From NCBI GenBank assembly GCA_019235245.1, contig JAFAKO010000152.1, positions 1 to 53,293 on the forward strand: 53,293 nucleotides of DNA, read 5' to 3'. Below are positions 7,688 to 20,013 of this stretch, one piece after another. A model generated the notes under the pieces. It made no database searches and was not told the origin of the DNA. It saw nothing but the letters and a program-made list of their open reading frames with translations. This stretch comes from Gammaproteobacteria bacterium (GTDB lineage Bacteria; Pseudomonadota; Gammaproteobacteria; Steroidobacterales; Steroidobacteraceae). Made by a program: the position numbers and the translations under genes. Position 1 is the first letter of the stretch. Each line of letters starts with the position of its first letter.

Positions 7688-7780
7688 GTCCCCCGCCTCA
7701 ACGCGAGGCGTTGCTGCAGCGCACCGCCGGCTACCTCACCTGCGGGCCTCAGGGTCCCGCCTCGACGCGAGGCGCTGCTG
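7688..7780. repeat. two imperfect copies of a hairpin-containing repeat, GTCC(CC)CGCCTC(A/G)ACGCGAGGCG(T/C)TGCTG
   Basis: cgcctc-aacgc-gaggcg at 7694-7710 and cgcctc-gacgc-gaggcg at 7758-7774 with matching flanks; second copy lies in the 3' end of the TIR-TPR gene. Confidence 0.7.
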
Positions 7781-9949
7781 TTGGCGGTGGAGGTCGAGCA
7801 GATAACCGCGCACCAGCGCCCGATCGGACGCGAAGCCATACGGATCCTTGTTCACGATGGGGGTGCTTTCGTTGAGCAGCTTCTCGGCGTGCGCGTAATC
7901 GCCGAGACCGGTGAGCGCTGCGCCCTCGACGCAGGCGGCAAGCGCAGCCGCAAAGTAAGTCGGCGAAAAAGCGGCGGTATAGATTTCCCGTGCTGCTCGC
8001 GCGTCCCGCTCAGCCCCGGCAAACTTGCCCGTGACGACCTCGAGCATCGCGAGCTGCAACAGGCTCGAGGCGATGTCCGGATGTTTGGTGTCGAACAGTC
8101 GTCGCCGCATCGCGAGCGCGGCCTGCACCGCGCGGTCAGCGGCGGCGTAGTCGCCACCCAGCATCTCCCAGTAGCCGACGAGATTCATGGTCCGCGCAAC
8201 CTCGGCGTTATCCCCGGGGAAGAGGCGCTGGTACATGTGCAGCGACTCGAGCAAGGTCGCCATGCCTTCGCGCGTGTGACCTTCTTCGTACTGCACGAAC
8301 GCGATCTTGCCGAGGGTAAACGCCACGTCCGGGTGATTCTCGCCGAGTAGCTCGCGTAGCATCGTGTAGGCTTCGCGATAGGTCGCCTCCGCGCGCTCCA
8401 GGTCGCTCTTGCGCCAGTAGATCAGCGCGAGGTTGTTGAGTCCCATGGCGATGTTGGCGTGTTTTTCCCCGTACAAGCGCCGATACATTGCGAGCGATTC
8501 GACCATCAGCTTTTCCGCCTCTGCGGGCTGGTCATTATCTATCTGCAGAACGGCCAGATCGTTGATCGCTTCAGCGAGTGCCGGATGCGGCGCTCCGCCG
8601 CGAAGCCCGCGCTGTACCGCGACGGCTTCTACCATGAGCGGGATCGCCGACTTGAGATCGCCATTCTGGTCGAGGACTTTTGCCAGCTCCTTGAGCGTGC
8701 GCGCCGTGTCGTCGTTTGCCTCACCGTAAAGCGCGCGCCGCTCCGTGAGCGCTTCGCTCAAGCTAGCTTGCGCGTCCGTGCCACGGTCTTCCTGGGCAAG
8801 GACTATGCCGAGGCCGTAGTGCGCTTGCGCCTGGGCTTCCTGCCTGCGCCGGCCTTCGGGCTCGCTGGCGAGCAGTCGCAGCACTTCACGATAATCCTTC
8901 TCCGCGGCCGCAAAGTCCCCCTGCCAATCCAGCAGCTCGCCCCGGTGGTTGAGCGTCTCGGTGAGTTCCCCCGGCTCCGCGCGTGCCCGCCGCTCGCGCG
9001 CGGCGAGCGCGCTGTCGAGCAGCGGCCGCGCCTGGCTGTAGAGGCCGAGCCCCATGTAGACGGTGCCGAGGGTGTCCTGCAGAGTCGCCCGGATCTGTGG
9101 CTGATCCTTTAGCTGCGTCTGCACGCGCACCGCGCCCTTGTCCAGTACCTCGCGTGCCGTGAGGCTGTTGCCGCGCGCCTCGCTCGGATCGGAGACCTTG
9201 AACAGGTCGACGAGAAACGCGGTGGTCTGCCGCGCGGTCTCCGCCTCGCGCTTGGCGATGACGGTCTGCCGCTGTGCCTGAGCGCGGGCGATCAGCGCGG
9301 CAGCTGCGAGCCCGCTGGTGATCACCATGCCCGTAATGGCTCCAGAGGCGATCAAGAACAATTGACGCTGCCTGCGACGCTGCTCGCGCTGGCGCAGCCC
9401 GTCGAACCCCACGCCCAATAAGCCGGCGATGAGCTTCAGTTTGGCGTTGTTGCGCCCGTCCTTGCCCGGCCGGGCGTCTGCAGCGATCGGCTCCGTCCGC
9501 TCGGTGCTCAGATTGCCGTCGGGGCCGAGCTTGTAGCGCAACGCCGGCGGGAAGCACTCCTCCCCGGCTTGGGCCGGGTCATCCGATGCGTTGGGCTCGC
9601 CACCAACGATCAGGGCAAAAATACGGTCCTCGCGGCCGAGCCGTTTGAAGGCGAGGATCTCCTCGTTCACCCACTTCGAGCGGGCGGAGCTCGGCGAGCA
9701 GATGACGATCTGACAGGCAGACGCCTTCAGCGCCTCATTGAGGAGGGTGCCGAGATCGGTGGCGCTCGCGAGCTCCTCGCGGTCGCGGAAAATCGGGGTG
9801 AGACGCTTCGGCACGGGTCCGCGGGCGGTAACCGTACCGACGATCTGCTTGGGAGGCCGGTAAGACTCGAGCGACTTATGCAGCCACGTCGCCCACTTTG
9901 TGTCGCGGTGGCTGTAGCTCAAGAACGCCCGGTACTTGGGGGAATCCAA
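7736..9949 (-). CDS. TIR domain - TM helix - tetratricopeptide repeat protein
   Basis: N-terminal AFLSYSHRDTKWATWLHKSLE...TPIFRDREELASATDLG...SKWVNEEILAFKRL (TIR with W-x3-E), TM FLIASGAITGMVITSGLAAAALIA, then TPR units (GTVYMGLGLYSQARPLLDSALA, NNLALIYWRKSDLERAEATYREA). Confidence 0.88.
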   Translation of the reverse strand: MDSPKYRAFLSYSHRDTKWATWLHKSLESYRPPKQIVGTVTARGPVPKRLTPIFRDREELASATDLGTLLNEALKASACQIVICSPSSARSKWVNEEILAFKRLGREDRIFALIVGGEPNASDDPAQAGEECFPPALRYKLGPDGNLSTERTEPIAADARPGKDGRNNAKLKLIAGLLGVGFDGLRQREQRRRQRQLFLIASGAITGMVITSGLAAAALIARAQAQRQTVIAKREAETARQTTAFLVDLFKVSDPSEARGNSLTAREVLDKGAVRVQTQLKDQPQIRATLQDTLGTVYMGLGLYSQARPLLDSALAARERRARAEPGELTETLNHRGELLDWQGDFAAAEKDYREVLRLLASEPEGRRRQEAQAQAHYGLGIVLAQEDRGTDAQASLSEALTERRALYGEANDDTARTLKELAKVLDQNGDLKSAIPLMVEAVAVQRGLRGGAPHPALAEAINDLAVLQIDNDQPAEAEKLMVESLAMYRRLYGEKHANIAMGLNNLALIYWRKSDLERAEATYREAYTMLRELLGENHPDVAFTLGKIAFVQYEEGHTREGMATLLESLHMYQRLFPGDNAEVARTMNLVGYWEMLGGDYAAADRAVQAALAMRRRLFDTKHPDIASSLLQLAMLEVVTGKFAGAERDARAAREIYTAAFSPTYFAAALAACVEGAALTGLGDYAHAEKLLNESTPIVNKDPYGFASDRALVRGYLLDLHRQQQRLASRRDPEARR

Positions 9950-10126: not shown

Positions 10127-11902
10127 TTGTCGACGAACAGCCAGAACGACGCCGTCTCAGCTTTCGTGGTTGGAGTTTCCGGGCATCGGGATCTGCGGAG
10201 CGAGGACTTACCGCAGCTGCGCGCGGCGGTCGCCGATGTCCTCAGGCGCCTCGCCGAGCACCTGCCCGATTCCGAACTGCGAGTCATGGCGGGAATGGCG
10301 ACCGGGGCCGATCTGCTCGTGGCGCAGACCGCTCTCGATCTCGGTTTCGGCGTCGATGCCCTGCTGCCGATGCCACTCGAGCACTATGCGGAAGACTTCG
10401 ACACCGACTCCTTCGACGTTCTGAAGAGCCTTCTCGCCCACCCGCACGTCCGTCACCGCGAGCTGCCACTGAACCCGGCCGGGACTGAGGCGAGCACCGG
10501 TATTCCCGACCGGGACTTCCACTACGCCATGCTCACGCGGCACCTGGTGCGTGGTTGCAGTCTCCTCATCGCGTTGTGGGATGGAGAGCCCTCTGCACTC
10601 CCCGGCGGCACGGCGGACACGGTGCTGCGCTATCTCGGCGTGCGCACCGAACGGAACAAGGACGAGGAGCAGCTCGAGTTCTCCGATGCAGCGGCCGATG
10701 CGGACCTGCCGGCGCGGCTCGTGTACTGGATCCCCACAGTTCGCGCTAAAGCTGCGAACGGGCCGGCCACCGAGGCGGAAGCCACCGGCATGATCCCGTG
10801 CTTTCTCGCCGGGCTCGGTGACAACGCGCTGCAGCGCGTGCCGGCGATCCCGCGCAGACTCCAGGTCCATTTGCAGTCGCTCAACGCCTACAACCGCGAG
10901 CACCAGTATTTCATCAACAGCTGGCCGGCTCCGGGCAACCCGGACTCGCTGTTCGGCAGCCTGCCCGCGACCTTGCAGGTCGATCCGCACGACCAGCCGG
11001 TCCTCGAGTCGATCGATGCCCAGTACGGCAAGGCCGATGCGCTGGCGCTGCATTTCCAGAAGCGCTCGGACCACCTGTTCGCATTCTTCAACATCGTCGC
11101 GTTCGTGATGGGCCTCGCCTACCTCACGTACGAGAAGTTCATGAGCACGCGGCTGCTGTTGCTCGTGTATTTGCTCATCCTTACTTCCAGCGTGGGCGTT
11201 TATCACCTGCTCCACGAGCGGCACTGGTTCGCCAAGCACCTCATGTGCCGCGCGCTGGCGGAGACGCTGCGGGTCAAGTTCTACCTGCGGCTGGCGCACT
11301 GCGACCACCTGGTGAATGCGGAAGAGGTGCTGTCACTGTCGGGCATAAACCGCTTCCACGGCTTTGGCTGGATCGGCCACGTGCTGATCGGGGTCGAAGC
11401 GCCACCGCAGCTCGCTCCGGGAGCCGGCGCACAACGCGGTGGCATCGATCGGGCGTGGATCGAGAGTCAGTGCCAGTACTTCGTGCGCAAAGTGGCTAAA
11501 CTCCATCGCAGCGGCCTGCGGACCAAGTGGCTGAAGCGCCTGTTGTTCGGGGTGATCATCGCGGTGGTGGTGGTGCTGCTGTTACTCGGGGAAACCGCAG
11601 GGGAGAGCCGCATCCTCGGTATACCGATCGAAAATTCACTGACCTTCCTCCTGGGACTCGTGGCCGTGACCCTCGCATCCTGGGAGCTGCACCAGAACAA
11701 AATGGCAACCCGCGAGCTGCTGTGGCAGTACCGTAATCAGTTGAAGCACTTCTCGCGTGCCCGGGCGCAGCTCGCCCGTACGCTCGCCGCCGGTCGGCGG
11801 CTCGAGATCCTCGCCGACCTGGGAAAGGACTCGCTGATGGAGAGTTACCTGTGGACCATCCATCGGTTCCATCGCGAGCACGAGCCCCCGGGACGCGGCT
11901 GA
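10127..11902 (+). CDS. SLOG-like (LOG/DprA-type) nucleotide-sensor domain protein with C-terminal TM regions
   Basis: AFVVGVSGHRDLRSEDLPQLR...ELRVMAGMATGADLLVAQTALDLGFGVDALLPMPLEHYAEDF fits the SLOG pattern (GHRD...GADLLVA); two hydrophobic pairs (AFFNIVAFVMGLAYL/LLLLVYLLILTSSVGVY; LLFGVIIAVVVVLLLL/SLTFLLGLVAVTLASW) then a polar helix ELLWQYRNQLKHFSRARAQLA. TTG start. Confidence 0.78.
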   Translation: MSTNSQNDAVSAFVVGVSGHRDLRSEDLPQLRAAVADVLRRLAEHLPDSELRVMAGMATGADLLVAQTALDLGFGVDALLPMPLEHYAEDFDTDSFDVLKSLLAHPHVRHRELPLNPAGTEASTGIPDRDFHYAMLTRHLVRGCSLLIALWDGEPSALPGGTADTVLRYLGVRTERNKDEEQLEFSDAAADADLPARLVYWIPTVRAKAANGPATEAEATGMIPCFLAGLGDNALQRVPAIPRRLQVHLQSLNAYNREHQYFINSWPAPGNPDSLFGSLPATLQVDPHDQPVLESIDAQYGKADALALHFQKRSDHLFAFFNIVAFVMGLAYLTYEKFMSTRLLLLVYLLILTSSVGVYHLLHERHWFAKHLMCRALAETLRVKFYLRLAHCDHLVNAEEVLSLSGINRFHGFGWIGHVLIGVEAPPQLAPGAGAQRGGIDRAWIESQCQYFVRKVAKLHRSGLRTKWLKRLLFGVIIAVVVVLLLLGETAGESRILGIPIENSLTFLLGLVAVTLASWELHQNKMATRELLWQYRNQLKHFSRARAQLARTLAAGRRLEILADLGKDSLMESYLWTIHRFHREHEPPGRG

Positions 11903-13131
11903 TGGTCGCCGTGATGCCCGGGCCGATTCAGCGCGCCGCTGCCGCCATCACTGCTCCTGTCCATGCTCTCGCCGACCTCCTGCTCGTGCGCCGCGGCCCC
12001 TATGCGCGCGCTTTCGACAATCTCATCCTCGGTCTCATTATCTTCAGCGTTGCCTCGATTGGGCTCGAGTCCATTCCCGGACTTCCGGACTGGGCCGCAC
12101 AGGCATTGCACATCGCCGAGATCGTCGTCGTCGCGGTGTTCACCTTCGAATACCTGCTGCGCATCGTCGCTGCTCCGAACAAGCTCGCCTTCATATTCAG
12201 CTACCAGGGCCTGATCGACCTGCTGGCGATTGCCCCCTTCTACCTGGTCGGCGTCGACGCGCGCTGGCTGCGGGCTCTGCGGCTGCTGCGGCTCCTGCGG
12301 CTGCTGAAGCTCCAGACGCACATCCTGGAGAGCGTCGTCGAGCAGCGCACGCGGGAGCTGGCCGAGAAGAATGCGGCCCTGGAGGAAGCGCAGGCGCAGC
12401 TGAAAGCAGAGCTCGAGGTGGCACGCTCGCTGCAGCTGGCCATCCTGCCGTCATCTTTTCCGGCACGGCCCGGCTGCGAGGCTGCCGCGCGCATGATCCC
12501 GGCGACGACCATGGGCGGAGATTTCTACGACTACATCGAGCTTCCCGACGGGCAGATCGGACTCGTTATCGCGGATGTCTCCGGACACGGGGTGCCGGCG
12601 GCATTCTTCATGGCGGTGGCGCGCACCAACCTGCGCGAGCTGGCTGCTCACCACCCCGATCCGGGTGAGTGCCTCGCGCGGACCAACGACGCGCTGTGCG
12701 CGCAGAACCCGCTGGATCTGTTCGTGACTGTTTTCTACTGCGTGCTCGACCCGCAAACCGGCAGGCTGCGCTACGCAAACGGCGGTCACAATCCGCCCTA
12801 CGTGCGCCGTGCGGCCGGCGGGGTCGAAACCCTCAGCGGGGCCGGCGGCCTGGTGCTGGGCGCGATGGTCGGCGCCAAATTCCCGACCCACAGCGTGCAG
12901 TTGCTCGCGGGTGACCGCCTGGTGCTGTATACCGACGGGGTGACCGAGGCCTTCAATCCGGCCGAGCAGCTCTACGGAGCGCAGCGGCTTGTCGATGAGG
13001 TTCACGTGCACGGCGGCGGCACACCGGCAGCCCTGGTCGAGCGCATCTGCCAGAGCGTCACGGATTTCGCCGATACCGCGCCGCAGTCGGACGACATCAC
13101 ACTCGCCGTCCTCACCTGGGGCGCCCCATGA
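11902..13131 (+). CDS. voltage-sensor domain (S1-S4) fused to SpoIIE/RsbU-type PP2C phosphatase
   Basis: S1 FDNLILGLIIFSVASIGLES, S2 AEIVVVAVFTFEYLLRIV, S3 GLIDLLAIAPFYLVG, S4 RWLRALRLLRLLRLLKL; coiled coil EQRTRELAEKNAALEEAQAQLKAELEVARSLQLAILPSSFP; PP2C motifs GGDFYDY, IADVSGHG, ANGGHNPP, LYTDGVTEA, SDDITLAV. ATG overlaps the upstream TGA (TGATG). Confidence 0.9.
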   Translation: MVAVMPGPIQRAAAAITAPVHALADLLLVRRGPYARAFDNLILGLIIFSVASIGLESIPGLPDWAAQALHIAEIVVVAVFTFEYLLRIVAAPNKLAFIFSYQGLIDLLAIAPFYLVGVDARWLRALRLLRLLRLLKLQTHILESVVEQRTRELAEKNAALEEAQAQLKAELEVARSLQLAILPSSFPARPGCEAAARMIPATTMGGDFYDYIELPDGQIGLVIADVSGHGVPAAFFMAVARTNLRELAAHHPDPGECLARTNDALCAQNPLDLFVTVFYCVLDPQTGRLRYANGGHNPPYVRRAAGGVETLSGAGGLVLGAMVGAKFPTHSVQLLAGDRLVLYTDGVTEAFNPAEQLYGAQRLVDEVHVHGGGTPAALVERICQSVTDFADTAPQSDDITLAVLTWGAP

Positions 13132-13487
13132 ACCTGCAGATCGAGGCCGACGGCGCCACTACGTACCTGGTGCCCGTGGGCCGGATCGATTTCGACGCGG
13201 CACCCGCGTTTCAGCAGGCGGTCGAGCGTGTTCTCAGTGGCGCCGGGCAGACACCGCCCACGACGGTCATCATCGATGGAGCCAAGCTCGAGTACGTCTC
13301 GAGTGCCGGACTTCGGGCCGTGCTGTTGCTCGCGCGCGCCGCGCAGCGCGCGCACATCGCGTTCGCCCTCTGCGCACTGCAGGCGCCGGTACGCGAGGTG
13401 TTCAACCTCTCTGGCTTCAGCCAGATCATGGCGATCCATTCGGACCGGGAAACCGCGCGCAGCCAGTCGCAGCCGCCGCGTACGTGA
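13128..13487 (+). CDS. STAS-domain anti-sigma factor antagonist
   Basis: YLVPVGRIDFDAAPAFQQAV...VIIDGAKLEYVSSAGLRAVLLLARAA; STAS with candidate phospho-Ser; 4-bp overlap (ATGA) with upstream gene. Confidence 0.88.
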   Translation: MNLQIEADGATTYLVPVGRIDFDAAPAFQQAVERVLSGAGQTPPTTVIIDGAKLEYVSSAGLRAVLLLARAAQRAHIAFALCALQAPVREVFNLSGFSQIMAIHSDRETARSQSQPPRT

Positions 13488-13921
13488 GCGAGCAGCGGAT
13501 GTCGGTCGCTGCGCAAGCGGCTCACCTTCCGCAACTGACGGCTTTCCTGGAGCAGTTCTGGTCGAGCGCGTCGCTCCCTCCCGGGGGATGTCCGGCCTTT
13601 GCGCTGGCGCTGGAGGAGCTGTTCGCGAACGTGGTCATGCACGGCTCCGCGGGAGGGGCGCTGCAACAGGTCGAGGTGTCGCTCGCACTGACCCCTGAGG
13701 GGGTCACCATGACCATCGAGGACGATGGCCCGGGCTTCGATCCCCTGTCGCTGCCGCCGCCCGATCTCACGGCGAGCCTCGCGGAGCGGCCGGTGGGTGG
13801 GCTCGGCGTATTCCTCGTTCGCAAGATGATGGACACGGTGAGCTACGCGCGCGTTGCCGGACGCAACCAGGTGCGCATGAGCAAACGGCTGGCGCGTGCA
13901 GCGGGGGCAGAATTCGCGTAG
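13484..13921 (+). CDS. RsbW-like anti-sigma factor ATP-binding protein (HATPase_c)
   Basis: N-box FALALEELFANVVMHG, G1 IEDDGPGFDP, G2 GGLGVFLVRKMMD; GTG start overlapping upstream TGA (GTGA). Confidence 0.87.
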   Translation: MSEQRMSVAAQAAHLPQLTAFLEQFWSSASLPPGGCPAFALALEELFANVVMHGSAGGALQQVEVSLALTPEGVTMTIEDDGPGFDPLSLPPPDLTASLAERPVGGLGVFLVRKMMDTVSYARVAGRNQVRMSKRLARAAGAEFA

Positions 13922-14077
13922 CGTAGCCTCGACGGGAGGGCCAGGGCGACGGCGATACTCCCGTATAAGAAGAAGGGCGCATGTTCGGCATCGAGCCGGG
14001 CCCATGGGGGGAAATTCTACGTACAGGCCTATTCCGGCCATCCGCGCAGCGGCGGCGACGCCGCGCCTTGCGGAACG

Positions 14078-14103
14078 ACCAACTTTTTAAGGGCTGGACA
14101 GTA
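14078..14103 (+). promoter_or_regulatory. candidate ECF-sigma promoter motif (copy A)
   Basis: ACCAACTTTTT-N9-ACAGTA; same two blocks and spacing as 15346-15371; fits AAC-N17-GTA. Confidence 0.5.
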
Positions 14104-14106
14104 ATT

Positions 14107-14646
14107 GTGAGGGAGGAGGACGACCCGACCCTGGTGCAGCGCTGTCGGGACGGTGAACGTGATGCCTTTGAGCGGCTCGTCATTCGTTACCAGAAGCCCG
14201 TCTTCAACGTGGCGCTGCGGATGCTGCGCAACCGGCAGGACGCCATGGACGTCGCCCAGACGACCTTCCTCAAGGCCTTCGAGCATCTCGGAGATTACGA
14301 TCCAGCGTTCAGGTTTTATAGCTGGCTGTACCGCATCGCGATCAACGAAAGCCTCAACGCGCTTGCGCTGCGCAAGCCGCGTGGGGAGCTCGACGCGAAC
14401 GTCGCGGACGAGTCACCCGGCCCGGATCGCGCTGCCGAGGGTAGCCAGGCGCTTCAGGCGCTCGAGGATGCGCTGATGCAGATCAGCCCGGAGCTTCGCG
14501 CTGTGCTGCTGCTGCGACATGTCGCACAGCTGAGCTATGAGGACATGGCCCAGGCCCTGGGCTTGCCTGAAAAGACGGTGAAATCCCGGCTGCATACCGC
14601 GCGGGAGCGCCTGCGCGACCACTTAATGCAAGACGGAAGCATGTGA
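14107..14646 (+). CDS. ECF-type RNA polymerase sigma factor
   Basis: LVQRCRDGERDAFERLVIRYQKPVFNVALRMLRNRQDAMDVAQTTFLKAFEHL (sigma2) and LLLRHVAQLSYEDMAQALGLPEKTVKSRLHTARERLRDHL (sigma4). Start codon uncertain (ORF open from 13981). Confidence 0.9.
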   Translation: MREEDDPTLVQRCRDGERDAFERLVIRYQKPVFNVALRMLRNRQDAMDVAQTTFLKAFEHLGDYDPAFRFYSWLYRIAINESLNALALRKPRGELDANVADESPGPDRAAEGSQALQALEDALMQISPELRAVLLLRHVAQLSYEDMAQALGLPEKTVKSRLHTARERLRDHLMQDGSM

Positions 14647-14647
14647 C

Positions 14648-15331
14648 GTGATCGACGACCAACGCATGTCCCTCATTCATGCCGAGCTCGACGGCGATCT
14701 CAGCAACGAGCAGCGCGCCGCTCTCGCGCGGCTGCTGCTCGCCGATCCGGAGGCGCGGGCGTTGCGCGAGGAATTGCGGGGTCTCTGCGGCCGTCTCGAC
14801 GCAGTGGGGGCGATCGAGCCTCCGCCGCATCTCAAGGATTCGATTCTCCAGCGACTGCCCCCGGTCCCACGCGCCGCCTCGTACCGCAAAGCATCCCTGG
14901 GCCGCTGGCGGCTGGCCGCGATGGTCGCGGGGCTCCTCACGGCCGGGACGATTATCTACGAGACCATGCAGGGACCCGCCCCTGGCACCCGGGAGATCTC
15001 CGGCACGCTGGCGGCGGACGCACAGACGGCCCTCGATTCGGTAGCCCTCGACGGCGGCCGCGTTACCGGCCGCGCCACCCTTTATCGTGACAAGACTGGA
15101 CTCGCGGTGGGGTTGGAGGTGTCCGCGTCGGAGCCCGTGGACCTGATCATCGCTTCGGGGGGCCACTCGTTCCGAATCAATGGGTTGGGGCGCTCGAGCC
15201 CTGGCGGGACCAAGCCCCAGACCGTTGCGCTGACCGGCGTTCCGATGCAGGGCCAGGACATCGAGCTGTCGTTCCTGAGCGGCGAGCGGACGGTGAGTCG
15301 CGCGAGGCTGCATGCTCCGTCGGATCGCTGA
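14648..15331 (+). CDS. putative single-pass transmembrane anti-sigma factor
   Basis: GTG start right after sigma stop; N-term LIHAELDGDLSNEQRAALARLLLADPEARALREEL typical of anti-sigma factors; TM LAAMVAGLLTAGTIIYETM; extracytoplasmic C-domain. Confidence 0.75.
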   Translation: MIDDQRMSLIHAELDGDLSNEQRAALARLLLADPEARALREELRGLCGRLDAVGAIEPPPHLKDSILQRLPPVPRAASYRKASLGRWRLAAMVAGLLTAGTIIYETMQGPAPGTREISGTLAADAQTALDSVALDGGRVTGRATLYRDKTGLAVGLEVSASEPVDLIIASGGHSFRINGLGRSSPGGTKPQTVALTGVPMQGQDIELSFLSGERTVSRARLHAPSDR

Positions 15332-15345
15332 GGCGGGCAGTTCCC

Positions 15346-15371
15346 ACCAACTTTTTCAGAAGTCGACAGTA
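15346..15371 (+). promoter_or_regulatory. candidate ECF-sigma promoter motif (copy B)
   Basis: ACCAACTTTTT-N9-ACAGTA, 57 nt upstream of the repeat-protein ATG, matching copy A upstream of the sigma gene. Confidence 0.6.
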
Positions 15372-15428
15372 CTTATTTCAGAGCATCAACAAACCGAATC
15401 ATCCAAACAATCCTCAGGGAGACGCAAA

Positions 15429-15881
15429 ATGTCGGGCAAAACAGTGTGGGTAGTCGGCGGACTGGTACTTGCGGTTGGTGCCGTCGCGTATCTCAGCTAT
15501 CACGAGGCTCCATCGGGGAAGGACGCGGCAGGAACAATCGTCGCGGCAAAGCGGGCGATCTCTGATGGGACGAGCGTACCGAGCTCCGACAATGGCGCGA
15601 GCAACAACGGAAGCGACGCCAGTGACGGACGCGATGCCAGCGACAGCCGCGACAGCCGCGACAGCCGCGACAGCCGCGACAACCGCGACAACCGCGACAA
15701 CCGCGACAATCGTGACAACCGCGATAACCGCGACAACCGCGATAACCGCGACAACCGCGACAACCGCGACAACCGCGACAATCGTGACAACCGCGATAAC
15801 CGCGATAACCGCGATAACCGCGACAATCGCGACAATCGTGACAACCGCGATAATCGTGACAACCGCGACGCGGCCGAATAA
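15429..15881 (+). CDS. membrane-anchored protein with tandem D-(S/N)-R tripeptide repeats
   Basis: MSGKTVWVVGGLVLAVGAVAYLSYHEAPSG then DSR x4 and DNR x21; RBS-like AGGGAG upstream; repeat units differ almost only at synonymous third positions. Confidence 0.8.
   Translation: MSGKTVWVVGGLVLAVGAVAYLSYHEAPSGKDAAGTIVAAKRAISDGTSVPSSDNGASNNGSDASDGRDASDSRDSRDSRDSRDNRDNRDNRDNRDNRDNRDNRDNRDNRDNRDNRDNRDNRDNRDNRDNRDNRDNRDNRDNRDNRDAAE
15642..15866 (+). repeat. 9-bp tandem repeat array (gacagccgc x4, then gacaaccgc-type x21)
   Basis: Direct reading: 25 consecutive 9-bp units inside the CDS at 15429-15881. Confidence 0.97.
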
Positions 15882-15966: not shown

Positions 15967-18900
15967 TTGCGTAATAACAGCGACGTGCCTGGGGGAGCGC
16001 GGAGCTCGCTCTGCGTGGCAACACTCTTGGTTGCGGCGCTGAGCGGAGCCTCGGTCGCGCGCGCCGATCAGGAGATTGTAGAAACCAAGGACTTGCGCGT
16101 CGTCTATTACGACCCGGCCGAGACGTACCTCGTGCCGCACGTACTGCAGTCCTTGCTGAGTGGGCTCAGGGCCCACGAAAAGCTGTTCGATTACACCCCT
16201 GACGGGCCCTTGAATGTCTGGCTGAAAGACTTCAGCGATCGCGCCAATGCCCATGCGCGCGCAGAGCCCCGCAATCGGCTCTCCTTCGACATCGCCGCAA
16301 CGAACGATCCGTATGAGACGCTGAATTTCGGCGACCGGTTCGAATCGTTGGCCACTCACGAGCTCACACACATCGTGACGATGGATCGCGCCGCCCCTGT
16401 CGATGCGCGGTTTCGGCGACTCTTCCACAGCAAGGTCGGACTCGATCCCGCACACCCGGAGACTCTTCTCTACTATTACCTCACGGTGCCGCGCGCCACT
16501 GCCCCGCGTTGGTTCCACGAAGGCAGTGCGGTGTTCATGGAAACCTGGCTGAGCGGAGGCCGAGGGCGCGCGCAGGGCGGCTACGATGAGATGGTTTTTC
16601 GTGCCATGGTCAAGGAGAACGCCAGGTTTTACGACCCTTTAGCGCTGATGTCGAAGGGTACCGAGATAGACTTCCAGACCGGAGCGAACGACTACCTGTA
16701 CGGCACGCGTTTCATGAACTATCTGGCGTTTAAGTACGGGGCAAAACACTTGCTCGACTGGTGGCGGAGAGATGCCGCGAGCCGGCGCTACTATGCCGAC
16801 GACTTCCAGCGCGTCTTCGGCCTGCCGCTCGACAAGTCGTGGCATCAGTGGATCGAATTCGAGCACGAATTTCAGCAACAAAACCTCCAGTCCGTCCACG
16901 AGCACCCCCTGACCCCGTACCGTGACCTCACGCGAAAGGACCTCGGCGCAATATCACGCAGTTTTCTCTCGCCGGACGGAACCCGGCTCTACGCCGCCGT
17001 CCGCTATCCTGGCCAACTCGCACATATCGTGTCGATCGACCTGAGCAACGGTGCCGTCACCAGGCTGAACGAGGTAAGGGGCGCCGCCAGTTACGTGGTG
17101 ACCTCGCTTGCTTACGACCCCGGCAGTCAGACCCTGTTTTACACAACGGACAACAGTAACTTTCGCAATCTCGAGGCACTCGACCTGCGCTCGGGCAAGT
17201 CTCGCCAGCTGCTCAAAGCCGCGCGGATCGGAGACATCGCCTTCAATTCAGCGGATCGCTCGTTGTGGGGACTGAGGCTCGACAATGGATACGTGCAGCT
17301 CGTGCGCATCCCTTTCCCTTACCGGGACTGGGAGAAACTCTACGTTTTTCCGCCGCTCGTGAAGGCCTTCGATCTGGATCTCTCGCCGGACGGGACATTG
17401 GCGTCAGTATCTGTCTCGGGCGCCGGACTTAAATCGGGCTCATCTCAGGTAACTCAGGTCAGGGTTCTGCGCACCGACGCGCTCATGAGAGGAAAGGCGG
17501 CCCCACTGCACACTTTCGAGATGGGAGCAGCGGTCCCAGAGAGCTTCGTGTTCTCGAGAGACGGTCGTTACCTGTACGGCAGCAGCTATTACACCGGGGT
17601 ATCCAACGTCTACCGTTATGAGATAGCGACCGAGACCCTGACAGCGGTAACCAACGCGGAGACCGGCTTCTTTCGTCCGCTGCCCCTCGATGACTCCAAG
17701 CTCATCGTGCTGCGTTACGGGGCCAAAGGGTTTGTACCAGCGGAGATCGAAGCGCGGCCGACGGAGGACTTGAGCGCAGTCAATTTCTTGGGGGAGCAGG
17801 TTGCGGAGAAGTACCCGGAGGTGCAGAGCTGGGTCGCCGCGCCGCCTTCGTCGATGCCATACGAGTCTCAGATCCAGCACGAGGGACCCTACCGGCGTAT
17901 GAGAGAGCTGTCACTCGACTCGGTGATTCCGGTCATCGAGGGCTACAAAGACTCGGTGGCATTGGGCGCCAGTGCCCGCTTCAGCGACCCGATCGGTCTG
18001 GATTACCTCAGCGTCGACACGAGCTACAGTCCCGACGACGCGCTGCCCTCCAAGGAGCGTCTGCACGTCTCCACCGAGGCTCATCACCGAGACTGGACCG
18101 TGGGCGCGACCTGGAACGCCGCTGACTTTTACGACCTCTTCGGCCCGACGAAACGCAGCCGGGCAGGCTACAGCGCGTGGATCGGCTACGACTACGTGTT
18201 GATCGTCGAGCCGCCAAAGTACGCGGACTTCGTAACCAAGGTCGCCTACTATGGTGACCTGGACACGCTGCCGGGATTCCAGAACGTGCCCTCACCGTCG
18301 CAGCAGCTCTTTACCGCTGAAGCGGGTTTCCTTGCTGGCGACCTGCGCCGATCGCCGGGGGCTGTGGATGATGAAGCGGGCTACCGTTGGGCGGTCAAGG
18401 GACATGCGTACGGCGCGGCCGGCGATCTGATCCCGAGCGTCGCCGGGACGCTCGATATCGGGTTCCCGCTGCCAATCGATCATTCCTCGATCTGGCTCAG
18501 AACTGGCGCAGGCATCTCGGCCGCTGCGCATTCAAGCTCGCTCGATCCGCTTGCCAACTTCTATCTTGGCGGATTCGGTAACAACTATGTCGACAGCCCC
18601 AGGTACGGCAGTCCACAGCGCTATCGCGAGCTGCTCAGCATGCCGGGATTCGCTATCGACGCGCTGTCCGGCAGATCGCTGGTCAAGGGTCTGCTCGAGT
18701 GGTGTCTGCCGCCCGTACGGTTCGAGTCGCTAGGTTCACCCGGTTTCTATGTGAGCTGGGCGCGTCCAGAGCTGTTTGCCGGCGCCCTCGAGACCGATCT
18801 CGGTACCTCCGGAACTCGCCGGAATGCCCAGGACGTAGGGGTGCAAATTGACTTCCAGCTTCACGTGATGCACCGGCTGATGATGATGCTCTCGTTCGGT

Positions 18901-18969
18901 GCGGCCCAAGGCTACGGTGGCGGCGGACTGGGTACCACCGAATTCATGGCGTCGTTGCAGGTACTCTGA
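15967..18969 (+). CDS. peptidase MA-like metallopeptidase / beta-propeller / outer-membrane-barrel protein
   Basis: Signal peptide; LATHELTHIVTMD...RWFHEGSAVFMETW (HExxH with downstream HEG); mid-region propeller-like segments (ISRSFLSPDGTRLYAAVRYPG, FDLDLSPDGTLASV); C-terminal barrel-like strands. TTG start at 15967 or GTG at 15985. Confidence 0.75.
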   Translation: MRNNSDVPGGARSSLCVATLLVAALSGASVARADQEIVETKDLRVVYYDPAETYLVPHVLQSLLSGLRAHEKLFDYTPDGPLNVWLKDFSDRANAHARAEPRNRLSFDIAATNDPYETLNFGDRFESLATHELTHIVTMDRAAPVDARFRRLFHSKVGLDPAHPETLLYYYLTVPRATAPRWFHEGSAVFMETWLSGGRGRAQGGYDEMVFRAMVKENARFYDPLALMSKGTEIDFQTGANDYLYGTRFMNYLAFKYGAKHLLDWWRRDAASRRYYADDFQRVFGLPLDKSWHQWIEFEHEFQQQNLQSVHEHPLTPYRDLTRKDLGAISRSFLSPDGTRLYAAVRYPGQLAHIVSIDLSNGAVTRLNEVRGAASYVVTSLAYDPGSQTLFYTTDNSNFRNLEALDLRSGKSRQLLKAARIGDIAFNSADRSLWGLRLDNGYVQLVRIPFPYRDWEKLYVFPPLVKAFDLDLSPDGTLASVSVSGAGLKSGSSQVTQVRVLRTDALMRGKAAPLHTFEMGAAVPESFVFSRDGRYLYGSSYYTGVSNVYRYEIATETLTAVTNAETGFFRPLPLDDSKLIVLRYGAKGFVPAEIEARPTEDLSAVNFLGEQVAEKYPEVQSWVAAPPSSMPYESQIQHEGPYRRMRELSLDSVIPVIEGYKDSVALGASARFSDPIGLDYLSVDTSYSPDDALPSKERLHVSTEAHHRDWTVGATWNAADFYDLFGPTKRSRAGYSAWIGYDYVLIVEPPKYADFVTKVAYYGDLDTLPGFQNVPSPSQQLFTAEAGFLAGDLRRSPGAVDDEAGYRWAVKGHAYGAAGDLIPSVAGTLDIGFPLPIDHSSIWLRTGAGISAAAHSSSLDPLANFYLGGFGNNYVDSPRYGSPQRYRELLSMPGFAIDALSGRSLVKGLLEWCLPPVRFESLGSPGFYVSWARPELFAGALETDLGTSGTRRNAQDVGVQIDFQLHVMHRLMMMLSFGAAQGYGGGGLGTTEFMASLQVL

Positions 18970-18996: not shown

Positions 18997-20013
18997 GTGA
19001 GCGCTGATGCGCTGACGCGCGCGCCGATCGCGCTGCTGCCGGTGCTGCTGTTCCTGGTCGGCCTGGTGCAGCTCGATGGCTACAAGCTGGTGCGCATGCG
19101 GATGATGTTCCTCCTGCTCTTGACCGGCGCGCTCGCCGCCGGCGTGAGCTACCTGCTGAACAACTTTGCCTTCGCGCATTTCCACGGCTCCTTCGTCACT
19201 TACTCGCGCTACGTGTCGCCGTGGATCGAGGAGTCCCTGAAGGCTGCGCTGCTGGTGTTTCTGATCCGCACCCGGCGCGTCGGCCTGCCGGTCGATGCCG
19301 GCATCGCCGGTTTCGCGATCGGCACCGGCTTCGCTGTCGTCGAGAATCTCTACTACCTCGCCGCGCGCCCACATACCGTGCTCGCCGTGCAGGTGATCCG
19401 CGGCTTCGGCACGGCAATCATGCACGGGGGCACGGCTGCCATCCTCGCCATGATCTCCAACACCCTCTACGAGCGGCGGCCAAGCGGCGGGCTGCATCTG
19501 CTGCTGCCCGGCCTGTTCGCCGCAGTTGCTCTGCATACCGGCTACAACTATCTGCTGGTGCGGCCGGCGCTCGCCACGCTCGCGACGCTGCTGGTGCTGC
19601 CGTTCGTCATCTATCTGGTGTTCGATCACAGCGAGCGCATCCTGCGCACCTGGATCGAGGTGGACCTCGAGACCGACGTCAAGCGCCTCGAGTCAATCAG
19701 CACCGGGACATTTCTCGACAGTCCCTCGGGGCGCTACCTGCAGGCCTTGCGCGACCGCTTCAAAGGCGAGCAGCTCGCGGACATGCTGTGCTACCTGCGG
19801 GTGCACGGGGAGCTCGCGGTGCGCGCGAAGGGGCTGCTGCTGCTGCGGGAGACGGGTATGCCGGAGCCCCCGCTGGACGCTGAGACACGCGCCAGACTGG
19901 CCGAGCTCACGCAGCTCGAGCGCGCGATAGGCAAAACCGGCCTGCTCGCGCTACGGCCGCTGATGATGGCGACCGGCAAGGAGATCTGGCAGTTGACGCT
20001 GCTGCGCGGCTAG
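18997..20013 (+). CDS. PrsW family intramembrane metalloprotease with cytosolic C-terminal extension
   Basis: VSPWIEESLKAALL, GFAVVENLYYLA, RGFGTAIMHGGTAAILAM, ALHTGYNYLL motifs in a multi-TM protein; GTG start. Confidence 0.85.
   Translation: MSADALTRAPIALLPVLLFLVGLVQLDGYKLVRMRMMFLLLLTGALAAGVSYLLNNFAFAHFHGSFVTYSRYVSPWIEESLKAALLVFLIRTRRVGLPVDAGIAGFAIGTGFAVVENLYYLAARPHTVLAVQVIRGFGTAIMHGGTAAILAMISNTLYERRPSGGLHLLLPGLFAAVALHTGYNYLLVRPALATLATLLVLPFVIYLVFDHSERILRTWIEVDLETDVKRLESISTGTFLDSPSGRYLQALRDRFKGEQLADMLCYLRVHGELAVRAKGLLLLRETGMPEPPLDAETRARLAELTQLERAIGKTGLLALRPLMMATGKEIWQLTLLRG

Follow-up and report, generated by a model that had tools for sequence, protein, structure and literature searches.

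Does any bacterial enzyme take its instructions directly from the membrane potential? The question is raised by the window analyzed here (the whole 53,293-nucleotide stretch of DNA), in which one uninterrupted plus-strand frame of 409 codons, from the ATG at 11902 to the stop at 13131, joins a voltage-sensor domain (VSD) to a SpoIIE/RsbU-type PP2C phosphatase. An upstream GTG at 11851 would lengthen this frame; ATG 11902, which shares bases with the stop codon of the gene before it (CTGATGG), is the better start. An earlier note on this DNA had described the protein as a pore-less voltage sensor fused to a phosphatase and had suggested that membrane potential may gate dephosphorylation of an adjacent STAS protein.

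A voltage-sensor domain joined to a PP2C phosphatase without a pore

The gene and its parts are as follows.

11902..13131, plus strand: VSD-PP2C fusion protein, 409 aa (open frame; Pfam Ion_trans and SpoIIE; AlphaFold; eight genomes)
12007..12312, plus strand: voltage-sensor domain S1-S4, residues 36-137 (aligned to 42 bacterial Kv VSDs that have a pore; Foldseek to Kv structures)
12259..12312, plus strand: S4 segment, residues 120-137, with six basic residues at i+3 spacing (kept in 8/8 fusions)
12313..12447, plus strand: coiled-coil linker, residues 138-182, helix continuous with S4 (predicted helix 120-180; homologous to the RssB linker)
12448..13119, plus strand: SpoIIE/RsbU-type PP2C phosphatase domain, residues 183-406 (Pfam; homologue invariance; Foldseek)

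The two-domain architecture is directly observed. The Pfam scan proposed in the earlier note, for Ion_trans plus SpoIIE without a pore domain, matched both domains: Ion_trans at residues 36-140 (E = 1.3e-16), covering only model positions 2-111 of 241, which is the S1-S4 part, and SpoIIE at residues 215-406 (E = 9.1e-58), with 191/192 model positions covered. The voltage-sensor hallmarks that the earlier note had listed are all present, namely FTFEYLLR in S2 (residues 80-87), D106 in S3 and the six i+3 basic residues of S4 (R121, R124, R127, R130, R133 and K136), with E56, E73, F80, E83 and R87 completing the key residues of the sensor. The phosphatase was rightly called complete, as GGDFYD, ADVSGHG, NGGHNPP, TDGVTEA and SDDITL each occupy their expected places and the metal-binding aspartates D207, D225, D345 and D398 are all retained. 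The claimed absence of a pore also holds: S4 passes directly into a helix ending at residue 180, followed by PP2C. Neither an S5-P-S6 pore nor a K+-filter motif was found in any of the eight fusions by Pfam match extent or filter-motif pattern. A hidden pore or truncated channel was ruled out, since the Ion_trans match ends at model position 111 of 241 and PP2C comes after the linker.

Sequence and structure comparisons agreed with this layout. By sequence, the N-terminal 146 residues matched the structures of Kv3.1 and Kv4.2 (both at ~1e-8) as well as a bacterial Nav channel, all within 1e-8 to 1e-7; the C-terminal part matched RssB of Pseudomonas aeruginosa, SiaA and the RsbU domain of Rv1364c. 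An AlphaFold2 model of the full fusion (54 aligned sequences) reached a mean pLDDT of 92.3 and placed a PP2C fold after residues 120-180, predicted as a single helix comprising S4 and the linker; this was the S4-coiled-coil geometry that the earlier note had proposed to check. The best Foldseek matches of the full-length model were PPM phosphatases (RsbU domain of Rv1364c, RssB and SiaA). For a model of residues 1-175 (46 VSD sequences; mean pLDDT 90.5), the 50 best PDB matches were all Kv/KCNQ channels. Both models are monomers in one state, and a pTM of 0.72 leaves it unsettled how the domains are placed relative to one another. The domain matches are far above chance. Judged by its sequence, the fusion belongs both to the SpoIIE/RsbU-type PPM phosphatases and to the VSD superfamily. 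It is neither an ion channel nor an animal voltage-sensing phosphatase (VSP) and lacks the Hv1 signature, but it may work like a VSP. Bacterial six-transmembrane (TM) Kv channels share ~34-52% identity with it over S1-S4 and have the same charge-transfer centre, whereas the fusion is without S5-P-S6.

To gauge how unusual a missing pore is, 114 distinct VSD-bearing ORFs were compiled from the window's phylum, the phyla of the Planctomycetes genome G975 and the Terriglobia genome G979, and scattered loci. A K+-filter motif was recognized in 106 by pattern and in two more by eye (AVGYG and TVGHG); the remaining ORFs were the fusions and one truncated at the edge of its contig. All intact non-fusion VSD ORFs in this three-phylum census (108/108) carried the motif. 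Additional VSD matches in the window's family were single- or tandem-VSD proteins with a filter, apart from one with its filter in a shifted frame and one that runs off its contig. The tandem-VSD K+ channels, in which two VSDs precede one pore (ASVGYGD; L236, L241, L243-L246, L253, L257 and L020), are a common feature of one genus (g6) in this family. A further Kv-like channel (L193:1414-2643) with a TVGHG filter has a C-terminus that, by eye, looks Schlafen/AlbA-type. According to a 2023 review that drew on database searches, every prokaryotic VSD known so far has a pore for K+, Na+ or Ca2+ alongside it (PMC10377628), a statement to which the VSD-PP2C family is an exception. A literature search for VSDs with SpoIIE or PP2C, confined to open-licence PMC and not exhaustive, returned nothing relevant, and no bacterial report of a pore-less voltage sensor on a signaling enzyme was found.

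Distribution and gene neighborhood of the fusion

The fusion occurs, with the same joint, in eight independent genomes of uncultured bacteria from four genera of one family. Four of the 58 genomes in the window's genus carry it (the window's own, G000, with G106, G122 and G283). A VSD-profile search of 217 family genomes yielded four further fusions in three other genera (G1519, G1506, G1508 and G1496), bringing the family frequency to 8/217; Pfam also confirmed both domains in G1519 and G1496. Beyond these, no fusion turned up among 296 sampled genomes of the order and 369 of the class, in scans that were dominated by PP2C hits and could have missed divergent sensors. Some carrier genomes are fragmented, and the copy in G283 is frameshifted within S2, ~200-300 bp away from the end of its contig, where an assembly error and a recent break cannot be distinguished. 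In an rpoB tree, the three carriers having rpoB are scattered and a close sister lacks the fusion (the window's genome is absent, no rpoB having been found there). This patchiness (4/58 in the genus, 8/217 in the family, a sister without the fusion) counts against reading the protein as a voltage-controlled phosphatase.

The genes around the fusion in the window are listed below.

7736..9949, minus strand: TIR-TPR protein (Pfam TIR_2 2.8e-11, TPR)
10127..11902, plus strand: 591-aa SLOG-like and multi-TM protein (weak matches: NCBIfam SLATT_3 E 0.033, Pfam DprA/SLOG 0.06)
13128..13487, plus strand: STAS anti-sigma-antagonist-like protein, 119 aa (Pfam STAS 2.8e-14, TIGR00377 5e-16)
13484..13921, plus strand: RsbW/SpoIIAB-like HATPase_c_2 protein, 145 aa (Pfam 1.1e-27)
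13981..14646, plus strand: ECF sigma factor, start uncertain (Pfam Sigma70_r2/r4_2, TIGR02937)
14648..15331, plus strand: probable membrane anti-sigma protein, 227 aa, one hydrophobic segment (position after the ECF gene; co-conserved; no significant family match)
15967..18969, plus strand: 1000-aa protein (within the genus, present in exactly the 4/58 genomes that have the fusion)
18997..20013, plus strand: PrsW-like intramembrane protease (Pfam 2.2e-19)

The STAS gene that the earlier note had placed beside the fusion does adjoin it, its start overlapping the fusion stop by 4 nt (ATGA); the HATPase start overlaps the STAS stop in turn by 4 nt (GTGA), and the stop of the 591-aa gene overlaps the fusion start (TGATG). 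Because of these stop/start overlaps, the 591-aa gene, the fusion, STAS and HATPase genes are probably one transcript.

Synteny was observed in the relatives. Each of the seven loci with sufficient flank has STAS and RsbW-like HATPase genes in the cluster, and an ECF sigma gene is at the same place in five of these seven. Class A loci (G000, G106, G122, G283 and G1519) run in the order fusion, STAS, HATPase, second STAS, ECF sigma, anti-sigma-like, repeat protein, 1000-aa protein and PrsW, except that the window's locus lacks the second STAS gene and the 1000-aa gene of G122 lies on a separate contig. In relatives, the second STAS gene precedes the ECF sigma gene at L052:7941-8459, L053:1740-2183, L054:7070-7390 and L258:11121-11486. 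Class B loci (G1506 and G1508) run TIR-TPR, an 844- or 1028-aa protein, fusion, SLOG/TM protein, STAS and HATPase, the STAS genes having been identified by eye; no ECF gene was seen near these loci. The G1496 contig ends just past the fusion. Since two homologous loci have no ECF sigma gene nearby, the sigma link is not general: the constant core is the fusion, the STAS protein and the RsbW-like kinase, and the ECF sigma factor is a frequent companion. From the scattered carriers, the sister without the fusion and the co-occurrence of the 1000-aa protein, it follows that the cluster behaves as a unit lost or moved together. No plasmid record spanned 80% of the query.

Several neighbors have features of their own. 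The 591-aa protein has an N-terminal SLOG-like motif (GVSGHRDL and GMATGAD) and about four likely TM helices. It stands beside the fusion in four loci. As an obligatory partner it was rejected: 24/58 genus genomes have it, and it is not beside the fusion in G122 or G1519. More speculatively, were it to form a nucleotide-gated pore, it could depolarize the membrane read by the VSD. PADLOC returned no anti-phage defence match in the fusion or the 591-aa neighbor. The TIR-TPR neighbor is kept in both locus classes (four loci: G000, G106, G1506 and G1508). The frame at 15312-15881 encodes a TM segment and ends in near-perfect RDSRDN/RDN repeats; relatives keep its start and differ in the repeat part. 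The 1000-aa protein contains an HExxH motif (HELTH) and has no Pfam match.

Conservation of sensor and catalytic residues, and rival readings

Pairwise identity among the fusions is 60-92% in the VSD (~60-75% for most pairs) and 65-85% in PP2C, and residue conservation among them is therefore informative. The earlier note had named loss of the S4 arginines, loss of the PP2C metal ligands or a pore in homologues as outcomes that would refute it; none materialized. All eight fusions keep the six basic residues of S4, F80, E83, D106 and the four PP2C aspartates and lack a pore, and E56 and E73 are kept in the seven having that part in frame. When the fusions were aligned with the 42 pore-bearing bacterial VSDs, F80, E83, R87, D106, P112, R124 and R127 were invariant and E73, R130, R133 and K136 nearly so; in this alignment the charge-transfer residues of the fusions are as invariant as those of the channels. 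The spacing of E73-F80-E83-D106 is identical to that of E226-F233-E236-D259 in Kv1.2. In PP2C, D207, D225, D345 and D397/D398 are invariant across 54 homologues and the eight fusions. Pairwise dN/dS among four orthologues was 0.22-0.36 for the VSD, 0.12-0.29 for the linker (one pair saturated) and 0.12-0.25 for PP2C; purifying selection acts on all three parts alike.

This conservation bears on what the VSD does. It could be a membrane anchor or dimerization platform, or sense lipid, pH or stretch, with the phosphatase regulated by a partner or constitutive. Membrane tethering alone is common among SpoIIE-type phosphatases, and the SLOG/TM neighbor could be the true signal input where present. 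An anchor, however, needs no six i+3 basic residues within the membrane plus F80, E83 and D106, yet every fusion keeps them, at a VSD identity of ~60-75% for most pairs, and charges in the membrane are costly unless used. We consider such a role unlikely, without dismissing it.

Much harder to sustain is a proton (Hv1-like) or cation leak path through the VSD, with the phosphatase answering local pH or ions. Hv1, too, is a VSD without a pore in which a coiled coil follows S4, and the topology of the fusion is the same. The Hv1 signature comprises RxWRxxR in S4 and an aspartate in mid-S1, whereas S4 of the fusion reads RWLRALR (R-W-L-R) and its S1 has no acidic residue in the middle, only D39 and E56 at the ends; the fusion also differs in having an enzyme attached. 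Prokaryotes have no known Hv channels (PMC10377628).

A chimeric assembly or functionless, decaying fusion, for which fragmented genomes, the frameshifted G283 copy and the patchy distribution might be cited, is already refuted for the family as a whole and hardly credible, as the same joint recurs in eight genomes of four genera with purifying selection on every part and conserved STAS/HATPase neighbors. This independent occurrence excludes the assembly artefact that the earlier note had allowed for, and together with the Pfam and Foldseek matches it also led us to reject a chance motif.

A sensor slot in PPM phosphatases and the proposed mechanism

The reading we prefer is that of a voltage-sensing protein phosphatase, in which a Kv-derived S1-S4 domain replaced the usual sensor of an RsbU/SpoIIE-type PP2C. 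We hold it to be quite probable, with voltage gating inferred in the absence of a functional measurement. The closest PP2C relatives share 55-63% identity with the fusion over the joined linker and PP2C, and before the same linker they bear REC (L025), PAS-like (L027), dCache-like (L026) or multi-TM (L001) N-termini, as judged from the sequences without a domain scan. Because these nearest relatives carry other sensors on the same linker, the VSD occupies a sensor slot. The alignment with RssB begins at residue 145, within the linker. The fusion resembles RsbU/RsbP/RssB/SiaA-type PPM phosphatases in its PP2C domain, the preceding coiled-coil linker and the STAS and RsbW-like neighbors. For Bacillus subtilis RsbU, experiments support a coiled-coil linker that dimerizes and activates the phosphatase domains, and from these it was proposed that diverse exchangeable sensors signal through such linkers in PPM phosphatases (PMC12143880). 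The sensors discussed there include the RsbU N-terminal domain, PAS, GAF, REC and HAMP; voltage is not mentioned, and in having a voltage sensor the fusion differs from that class (PMC12143880). A voltage sensor with S4 continuous into the linker fits the exchangeable-sensor scheme directly.

In the proposed mechanism, the resting potential would hold S4 inward and depolarization would let it move outward. This movement should shift, rotate, zip or unzip the linker, which in this phosphatase class aligns two catalytic domains, and so switch the phosphatase; dimerization of the fusion is itself inferred. That depolarization is the active direction is inferred by analogy with Ci-VSP, and the sign could be reversed. 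The most likely substrate is the phosphorylated form of the adjoining STAS protein, whose dephosphorylation is inferred to be the natural reaction because the STAS and RsbW-like genes adjoin the fusion. Dephosphorylated STAS protein would bind the RsbW-like kinase and free the kinase's captive, which may be the ECF sigma factor in some species and something else in others. The interpretation in the earlier note is supported, with voltage gating, depolarization as the active direction and a sigma-factor output remaining inferences.

The animal Ci-VSP/TPTE proteins are alike in having a pore-less S1-S4 domain to which a cytoplasmic phosphatase is attached via the end of S4. The phosphatase of Ci-VSP is a PTEN-like lipid/tyrosine enzyme, whereas the bacterial fusion has an unrelated Ser/Thr phosphatase (PP2C), a Kv-like VSD and a coiled-coil linker; no PTEN-like domain was found in it, only SpoIIE (PP2C) by Pfam and fold. 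The two may work alike, apparently by convergence, without the fusion being a member of that family.

It is fairly likely that this is the first voltage-gated prokaryotic enzyme, in which the potential sets PP2C activity and then gene expression or another output through STAS/RsbW, and which arose independently of animal VSPs by placement of a Kv sensor onto the PPM coiled-coil slot. If so, bacterial electrical signaling would gain a direct enzymatic reader beyond ion channels alone, and the Ci-VSP principle would have evolved independently with a soluble, readily assayed phospho-protein as its substrate. Two questions come within reach of experiment: do bacteria read membrane potential by means of an enzyme, and does the PPM slot accept any sensor that moves a helix?
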